This document shows positions 27,652 through 28,861 of a stretch of DNA of 28,916 nt, piece after piece. Under the pieces are notes generated by a model that was not told where the DNA came from, ran no database searches, and saw nothing but the letters and a program-made list of their open reading frames with translations. The stretch lies in the IMG/VR virus record IMGVR_UViG_3300030060_001196, positions 2,388-31,303 of that record, one strand, 5' to 3'. The DNA is from a virus. Within the stretch, counting starts at the first letter, position 1. Every line of letters begins with the position of its first letter. Both the position numbers and the translations under genes were made by a program.

Positions 27652-27666
27652 GGACTGGGTTTTTAT

Positions 27667-27695
27667 TTGTAGTCATGTGTTATTTGATGTATAAT
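27667..27695 (+). promoter_or_regulatory. Promoter of cassette 3 (GATGTATAAT type)
   Basis: TTGTAG (27667-27672), 17-base spacer, TATAAT (27690-27695). About 40 bases (GGGTTTTTATTTG to TATAATTAATA) are nearly the same as the cassette-4 promoter at 28105-28150. The leader ends in ATACGGAGG before the ATG. Confidence 0.85.
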
Positions 27696-27725
27696 TAATA
27701 ATCATAATAAAATACGGAGGAAATT

Positions 27726-28070
27726 ATGAATGTTCAAGAAAATTTAGATCCAAAGATCTTACCTGATTTGGTTAGCCAGGCTGTGCCAAAAGAAAAAGCG
27801 GCTGATATGTTGTATCAAGCTTTGCGTAAACAAGCAAAGCTCATGGGATTTGATCCAGATACAGAGGTATCAATGACAAAAAAATCTGGTGATTATCCAC
27901 AAGAAATAGGTAAAGAGGATATCTGGGTAACTTTCGAGGCCGGTCCCTGGGAATGGGGCGTTGCTTATTCTTTAAGCTCGCACCCAAAAAGTTATGACAT
28001 GTTTAGCAATCCTAATGACTGGTATTTAGAATGCTATTATGGCTTTGATGTGATATTTACTGATTGCTAA
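27726..28070 (+). CDS. Conserved phage hypothetical protein (WVTFEAGP motif)
   Basis: A 114-aa acidic protein: helical first half (KILPDLVSQAVPKEKAADML, YQALRKQAKLMGFDPDTEV) and a beta/aromatic second half (DIWVTFEAGPWEWGVAYSLS, WYLECYYGFDVIFTDC). The GPWEWGVAYS and LECYYGFDVIF strings resemble small phage hypotheticals I have seen, without known function. It has its own promoter, an excellent ribosome site (CGGAGG) and its own terminator, so it is a single-gene cassette. Confidence 0.75.
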   Translation: MNVQENLDPKILPDLVSQAVPKEKAADMLYQALRKQAKLMGFDPDTEVSMTKKSGDYPQEIGKEDIWVTFEAGPWEWGVAYSLSSHPKSYDMFSNPNDWYLECYYGFDVIFTDC

Positions 28071-28091
28071 GTAAGCTAAACAACAATCAAG

Positions 28092-28113
28092 CCCGGCTTA
28101 TGCCGGGTTTTTT
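28092..28113 (+). terminator. Intrinsic terminator, cassette 3
   Basis: CCCGGC (28092-28097), TTAT loop, GCCGGG (28102-28107) and six T. The T-run ends two bases before the -35 box of the next promoter. Confidence 0.92.
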
Positions 28114-28115
28114 AT

Positions 28116-28145
28116 TTGCATTTAAGTGTTGAATTGATGTATAAT
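28116..28145 (+). promoter_or_regulatory. Promoter of the non-coding cassette 4
   Basis: TTGCAT (28116-28121), 18-base spacer, TATAAT (28140-28145) in the context TTGATGTATAATAAATA. It matches the cassette-3 promoter almost base for base. Transcription would start near 28152, at the first arm of the long-range stem described for the RNA. Confidence 0.8.
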
Positions 28146-28151
28146 AAATAC

Positions 28152-28332
28152 AAGCTTTGATGATGGCAGCGCTCTTGTAAAAGCCCGGAGCTATACGCGG
28201 GTTAGAGCTGAAGTGGATAAGTGGAAACCAGCCACCACGCCAAAGCTTACCAGTAAGATCCTGAATGGCGGATCTTAATTCACGAGGCCGGATCTGTGAA
28301 ACGACTAAGCCCGGTTAACGCCGGGTTTTTTT
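28152..28332 (+). ncRNA. Candidate structured non-coding RNA, about 180 nt
   Basis: Promoter and terminator enclose no convincing ORF, but the sequence shows many exact pairings. P1: AAGCTTTG (28152-28159) with CAAAGCTT (28241-28248). Inside it, P2: CAG/CTG plus CTCT/AGAG (28167-28175 with 28204-28210, CG bulge), capped by P3 AGCCCG/CGGGTT (28182-28187, 28198-28203); and P4 GTGG...TGG-AAA-CCA...CCAC (28213-28238). After P1 come P5 TAAGATCC/GGATCTTA (28254-28261, 28270-28277, loop TGAATGGC), P6 TTCAC/GTGAA (28279-28283, 28296-28300) and the terminator hairpin. This resembles a three-way junction with two 3' hairpins. I do not recognise it as tRNA, tmRNA, 6S, RNase P, pRNA or hammerhead. Function unknown. 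Confidence 0.7.
28310..28332 (+). terminator. Intrinsic terminator, cassette 4
   Basis: CCCGG (28310-28314), loop TTAACG, CCGGG (28321-28325) and seven T. Its sequence is a close relative of the cassette-3 terminator (AAGCCCGG...GCCGGGTTTTTT). Confidence 0.88.
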
Positions 28333-28588: not shown

Positions 28589-28861
28589 ATGAAACCTACA
28601 AAAAAAGAATTACAAGGAATACTTGAAGCTCATGAAAAATATTATGGTGGGCCAGAGATTACCTTAGAACATTTAAATAACGTTGCCATTATCAGAAATT
28701 ATGTTCCAGATAATCCTGGTTGGTGTGGCGATATAGCTTTAGTTGTTCATGGAGACGCTTGTTATAAAGATATATTTTATTACGATTACAAAAGTGATAA
28801 ATGGTCTTTAGCTGAGTCAATGAATGAGGGCGATTACGAAGTTAACAAAGAGGTATATTAA
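28589..28861 (+). CDS. Hypothetical acidic protein
   Basis: A 90-aa protein with a helical start (TKKELQGILEAHEKYYGG) and a beta-type remainder (NNVAIIRNYVPDNPGWCGDI, ALVVHGDACYKDIFYYDYKS, DKWSLAESMNEGDYE). No family is recognised. It has the conserved ACGGAG ribosome site and its own promoter; the next gene begins immediately after its stop, so cassette 5 holds at least two genes. Confidence 0.7.
   Translation: MKPTKKELQGILEAHEKYYGGPEITLEHLNNVAIIRNYVPDNPGWCGDIALVVHGDACYKDIFYYDYKSDKWSLAESMNEGDYEVNKEVY

Follow-up and report, generated by a model that had tools for sequence, protein, structure and literature searches.

A putative stand-alone RNA gene in an uncultured tailed phage and the new three-way-junction RNA family to which it probably belongs

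Introduction

The pRNA of phi29 is a structured RNA from a single phage gene and forms part of one packaging motor. Phage HK022 carries two copies (putL and putR) of put, an RNA of approximately 70 nt with two stem-loops that lies just past the early promoters and acts in cis, with no phage protein needed (PMC9378689). The small RNAs PreS of lambda, VpdS of VP882 and 24B_1 are thought to target host or phage in trans; described phage sRNAs act by base pairing, and PreS is Hfq-dependent (review PMC12197685). GOLLD, ROOL and the motifs of PMC2864571, metagenome candidates represented in Rfam, were found by comparative genomics, and some are phage-borne and many have no assigned function.

Here we analyse a cassette at positions 28116-28332 of a 28,916-nt stretch of viral DNA, referred to throughout as the window, whose 5' domain (module A) has probable relatives in many other phages. 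Like put, the cassette would encode a small structured phage RNA close to early promoters, but it has a three-way junction with a closing stem P1, occurs in one copy and is found in stand-alone cassettes with a terminator. It resembles PreS, VpdS and 24B_1 as a small phage-made RNA, with trans action proposed here; those are single-phage RNAs, whereas module A forms a wide family, unmatched in Rfam, whose members share a conserved three-dimensional core. Module A shares with GOLLD, ROOL and the PMC2864571 motifs its discovery by comparative genomics, but none of them matches it at gathering score. Phage sRNAs as such are already known; the module-A family is new to Rfam.

Results

The window corresponds to bases 2388-31303 of a 31.3-kb viral record and has the gene content of a tailed phage, with an SU10-type portal, TerL and capsid. 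TerL was nearest (approximately 60% identity) to those of phage 023Pt_psg01, Pelagibacter phages HTVC027P and HTVC023P, and phage DSL-LC04, and the virus probably infects marine bacteria. Between 27500 and 28600 the early region is made up of insulated units of promoter, gene and terminator, whose promoters and terminators are nearly identical from one unit to the next; in relatives, whole units are gained or lost between terminator copies. The approximately 45-bp promoter region of the cassette recurs with 82% identity at about 27657-27701, before the 114-aa gene. Neither the 114-aa protein nor the 90-aa protein of the next unit matched a Pfam or PHROG family. At 15 viral loci the 114-aa protein has relatives, with identities down to approximately 50%.

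The cassette was also present in L004 (95%), L106, and L006 and L007 (79%). L005, L008 and L011 carried no cassette at this site, and there the terminator of the upstream gene runs into sequence resembling that found after the RNA. L106 has the RNA and lacks the preceding 114-aa gene cassette. Judged from these empty sites and from L106, the region around the cassette thus reads as a series of interchangeable units with promoter, gene and terminator, among which one is predicted to encode an RNA. The gene following the RNA in L106 differs from the 90-aa gene of the window, which argues against a fixed gene partner for the RNA.

Table 1. Positions of the cassette elements and of the two adjacent gene units in the window.
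Feature	Position	Strand	Remarks
114-aa protein gene	27726..28070	+	Has a promoter of its own and a terminator at 28089-28110; illustrates how cassettes are laid out in the region
Promoter region	28105..28151	+	-10 TATAAT at 28140-28145; weak -35 TTGCAT at 28116-28121
Module A, three-way-junction domain	28152..28248	+	Fold common to the family; compensatory changes relative to L004 in P2 and P3
P1, long-range 8-bp stem AAGCUUUG/CAAAGCUU	28152-28159/28241-28248	+	
P2	28171-28175/28204-28208	+	Part of bulged stem-loop
Bulge UGUAAA	28176-28181	+	Between P2 and P3
P3	28182-28187/28198-28203	+	Part of bulged stem-loop
P4, GUGG/CCAC hairpin	28213-28216/28235-28238	+	
P4 loop region AUAAGUGGAAACCAG...	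28217..28234	+	Counterpart of the conserved family loop AAUGAGnACUAAACCACCA
Inner UGG/CCA in P4 loop	28222-28224/28228-28230	+	
Second module	28254..28300	+	Two 3' hairpins
Perfect 8-bp hairpin, 8-nt loop UGAAUGGC	28254-28261/28270-28277	+	In second module
5-bp hairpin UUCAC/GUGAA	28279-28283/28296-28300	+	In second module
Intrinsic terminator AAGCCCGG-UUAA-CCGGGUUU plus T run	28307..28332 (stem 28307-28328)	+	Also present in relatives
90-aa protein gene, next unit	28589..28861	+	Own promoter-like TATAAT upstream

The initial annotation had described a stand-alone structured RNA of unknown family between a consensus promoter and an intrinsic terminator, and all the stems it listed (the 8-bp long-range stem, the bulged stem-loop, the GTGG/CCAC, 8-bp and 5-bp hairpins and the terminator) are present in the sequence (Table 1). 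Its promoter stands as far as the perfect TATAAT is concerned, with P1 starting at approximately the expected +1 position downstream; the word consensus does not hold, as the -35 element is off consensus and a promoter scan did not list the site. The promoter region is identical in L004, L006 and L007. Between the -10 box and the terminator lie approximately 155 nt without a conserved ORF. The initial annotation gave no ORF for the interval; on the sense strand a single ORF of 20 codons or more is fully contained in the cassette, a 21-codon GTG frame (28213-28278), and canonical relatives have not retained it. The extent of perfect pairing, put forward as strong evidence in a dedicated transcription unit, proved by energy to be within chance. 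The minimum free energy of the cassette sequence alone gave z = -1.15, with 29 of 200 shuffles folding at least as well, and with so ordinary a folding energy the single sequence is no proof of an RNA.

It is the comparison with relatives, not folding energy, on which the cassette was judged a real RNA. Between the window and L004, seven substitutions fell on paired bases and none broke a pair; three pairs, located in P2 and P3, were changed on both sides and one changed from U-A to U-G. Seven random substitutions would hit at least three pairs on both sides with P = 0.0009 and leave no pair broken with P = 0.023. Pair-preserving substitutions in homologues, whose absence the initial annotation had named as refuting its reading, were therefore found both here and across the family described below, and they bear out its central claim. 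A dedicated, free-standing, structured phage RNA outside any known family is thus supported by the sequence comparisons.

L006 and L007 share the locus, promoter and P1 of the window and have a different interior. A pattern search with the core of this interior, AAATGAGNACTAAACCACCATGCAC, returned 74 IMG/VR stretches, and a 5' pattern gave 118 matches in IMG/VR; 80 distinct family members were delimited, and the RNA is compact, at 85-100 nt. A MAFFT alignment of 55 members, not fitted to any structure, pointed to a three-way junction formed by P1, a bulged P2/P3 arm and P4. Seven of the nine P1 pairs were changed on both sides, and P1 was 97.1% paired. P4 was 98.9% paired, with variants such as CACG/CGUG, CAUG/CAUG, and GUA/UGC or GUA/UAC, and support was weaker for P2 (84% paired) and P3 (80% paired). 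Double-change cells numbered 111, compared to 29.7 +/- 4.3 after shuffling (none of 500 shuffles as high) and at most 13 in slid controls, the fairer control since the structure was partly read from the same sequences. In 35 of the 55 members the pair at the centre of P4 is U-G, as suits pairing in RNA and not in DNA.

Across the 55 members AGUG, the UnAAAA bulge and most of the P4 loop were invariant or nearly so, while the tip of P3 ranged from a GAAA or UUCG hairpin up to approximately 60 nt. The alignment therefore reads as a freely varying scaffold of helices carrying a conserved surface made up of the P4 loop of approximately 18 nt, the bulge and the joining strands. On the covariation, the existence of this RNA as a new family is nearly certain. 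It is rare to find a strongly covarying three-way junction with a nearly invariant loop that is common in uncultured phages and lies outside Rfam. Two earlier ideas were discarded. The first covariance model (R1) extended P1 by a GUG/CAC pairing, which new variants disproved, exposing P4; R1 was for this reason replaced by R2, which includes P4 and was built without the window lineage. A peptide, MRTKPPCT, readable in the type-1 core was rejected as a gene, its ATG frame being lost in the window and the variants changing by base pairing. One and the same P3 insert (about CCATTATAAATCCTAGATTAAATTCGGGGACATGG) was seen on otherwise different module-A RNAs (L103, L112, L126, L218, L220, L240, L244), and P3 caps look as if swapped by recombination.

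The window was not recovered by an R1 search with default filters. With R2 the best match in the whole window lay exactly at the cassette, at a marginal score (17.2 bits, E = 0.034); L004 and L106 scored 16.2 bits. The window has the arm order and P4 position of the family, the UUGUAAAA bulge and GUUA (in GGGUUA), and thus keeps both the UnUAAAA bulge and the GUUA adjoining P2/P3. Of the P4 loop consensus AAUGAGnACUAAACCACCA it keeps AU-AG and AAACCA only, and J1/2 differs from the consensus GGAGUGAG. A second divergent variant, in L011, has the same fold (23.5 bits with R2) and sits in the same opposite-strand cassette where L009 has a canonical RNA. A pattern for window-like variants matched the window lineage only, plus apparent chance matches.

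The window RNA is on these grounds likely a divergent member of the family, an assignment that depends mainly on synteny and architecture as the blind model score was marginal. That an unrelated structured RNA has replaced module A at this locus would account for the marginal E value, the different J1/2 strand and the restriction of the window version to three near-identical contigs. We consider such a replacement distinctly unlikely, however, given that locus, promoter and P1 sequence are those of the canonical L006 and L007, that arm order, bulge, GUUA and P4 position agree with the family, that the best R2 match falls here in the window record and at the predicted locus in G017 and G018, and that L011 provides another divergent variant with the same fold. 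The RNA would then be built of two modules, only the 5' 97 nt belonging to the wide family and the 3' hairpins being lineage-specific.

With R2, 30 carrier records of at most 59 kb each gave one copy and no more, a count that informs copy number and not frequency since these records were selected as carriers. No match was found in four GenBank relatives or in 22 of 23 further viral records, mostly TerL relatives of the window, the single match being the record of L011. Carriers comprise two phage groups with few shared genes, one window-like and the other, from our reading of its gene set, presumably akin to HMO-2011/T7-like podoviruses. Most members lie in leaders upstream of genes, and the downstream genes belong to more than 20 unrelated families. 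A -10-like box just before P1 was present in 43 of 78 members compared to 18.3 in controls. After some leader copies come a U-tract (L112, L107) and a ribosome-binding site. Gene-less promoter-RNA-terminator units were found in the window lineage and also in L009 and L011, on the other strand and at another site. No protein family was common to all five large records, the contigs being mostly incomplete, and so a phage-encoded partner of the RNA is not evident, a conclusion that is not firm.

Searches of Rfam 15 with the window and 11 loci gave no match at gathering score, two canonical modules had none at E <= 2, and permissive thresholds returned nothing convincing, which agrees with the absence of a known family suggested at the outset. 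No tRNA or tmRNA was found. When GenBank phages and plasmids were searched by BLAST with the window RNA, all matches were terminator-only or chance, and BLAST gave no true match among 50,697 GenBank phage records. A 31-nt match of a canonical module in MT836214 apparently lies inside a protein-coding stretch and looks like chance. Exact patterns had no match in the GTDB genomes searched, and our literature search found no paper describing a module-A RNA. A retron or DGR noncoding RNA was rejected, as the reverse transcriptase PF00078 was absent from 17 of 17 records in a search whose controls were positive, and a replication origin was rejected on the GC-skew minima, which lie elsewhere.

Discussion

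The best explanation of 28116-28332 is, tentatively, a free-standing RNA that acts in trans on a host partner. It is favoured because of the single copy, the lack of a fixed downstream gene, the gene-less cassettes and the conserved loop on a variable scaffold. The cassette would be a self-contained gene from which the host housekeeping RNA polymerase makes a structured RNA of approximately 175 nt. Early in infection the free RNA would act in trans, with the P4 loop and junction binding a host component, protein or RNA, that would be redirected or blocked. Related phages alter the RNA sequence and keep the fold, a pattern to be expected if the RNA adapts to a different host partner. Against trans action, the leader location and the -10-like box before P1 would fit a role in cis equally well, and a cis role, put-like or other, keeps part of the probability because most copies are in leaders.

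One such cis role would be antitermination as in HK022 put, in which the nascent RNA folds and binds host RNA polymerase so that terminators are read through. Module A often starts at the expected transcript start, as put lies just past its promoters, and module A is succeeded by a terminator or U-tract and then by a same-strand gene in the window, L009, L011 and L107. However, six of eight large records have no strong intrinsic terminator within 16 kb downstream and the other two have one; the next gene of the window is preceded by a promoter-like site of its own and varies from phage to phage, and put has two stem-loops in place of a three-way junction. We regard antitermination as rather improbable. 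A ligand- or protein-sensing leader that switches termination or translation of the next gene is somewhat less probable again: the leader positions, U-tracts and ribosome-binding sites noted above are what it predicts, but the downstream genes form no consistent class, there is a single copy per genome, three lineages have no gene in the unit and no expression platform is shared.

If the module served early mRNA as a structural element of the 5' end or in processing, by protecting or trimming the message, the frequent closure of P1 exactly where the 5' end is expected would be explained. A plain hairpin would suffice for this, however, and the near-invariant P4 loop, the single copy and the gene-less cassettes would be left unexplained, making such an element very unlikely. 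Equally remote is an element working as DNA or as a catalyst (a replication origin, packaging site or self-cleaving ribozyme); one copy per genome and conserved junction strands would suit it, and it conflicts with the positions of the GC-skew minima, the common U-G wobbles in P4 and P1, the RNA's own promoter and terminator in the window and the lack of any match to a known ribozyme family in Rfam. The packaging-RNA role raised by the initial annotation is also disfavoured. Unlike the phi29 pRNA with its one motor, module-A RNA is carried by two groups of phages that have few genes in common, and most searched TerL relatives are without it. Among the roles suggested there, we prefer a host-directed RNA.

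Taken together, the single copy, the unrelated carrier phages and the gene-less cassettes suggest that the family members may have a shared host target. If so, the host would be handled by means of RNA, in a way that cannot be seen when viral metagenomes are annotated for proteins. A broader proposal, which we put forward as speculative and on balance unlikely, is a new class of trans-acting, single-copy early RNAs exchanged between unrelated marine phages, with a P4 loop that inhibits or hijacks a host factor, e.g., a defence or RNA-decay component, and a sequence retuned on a constant fold. The carrier viruses thus seem to have in common an unstudied RNA tool.

Leaders of family members often carry further structured modules. 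The second module of the window RNA is almost invariant among window-lineage phages. In L100 and L101, close to the match, and on the minus strand of L107 it was seen directly before a gene, enclosed in a GGGC/GUCC-type stem with 7-8 T after it, an arrangement resembling a leader terminator or attenuator; in L100 and L101 it forms a U-tract leader by itself. In the podovirus-like group, leaders (L110, minus strand, approximately 4020-3650; L127, L151, L163 and L170, after module A) contain rows of structured modules, among them apparent H-type pseudoknots with A-rich third loops, e.g., GUAGG-UU-GGUAG-U-CCUAC-ACAAAAAA-CUACC, and hairpins such as UUGUCCGAG..GGACA.
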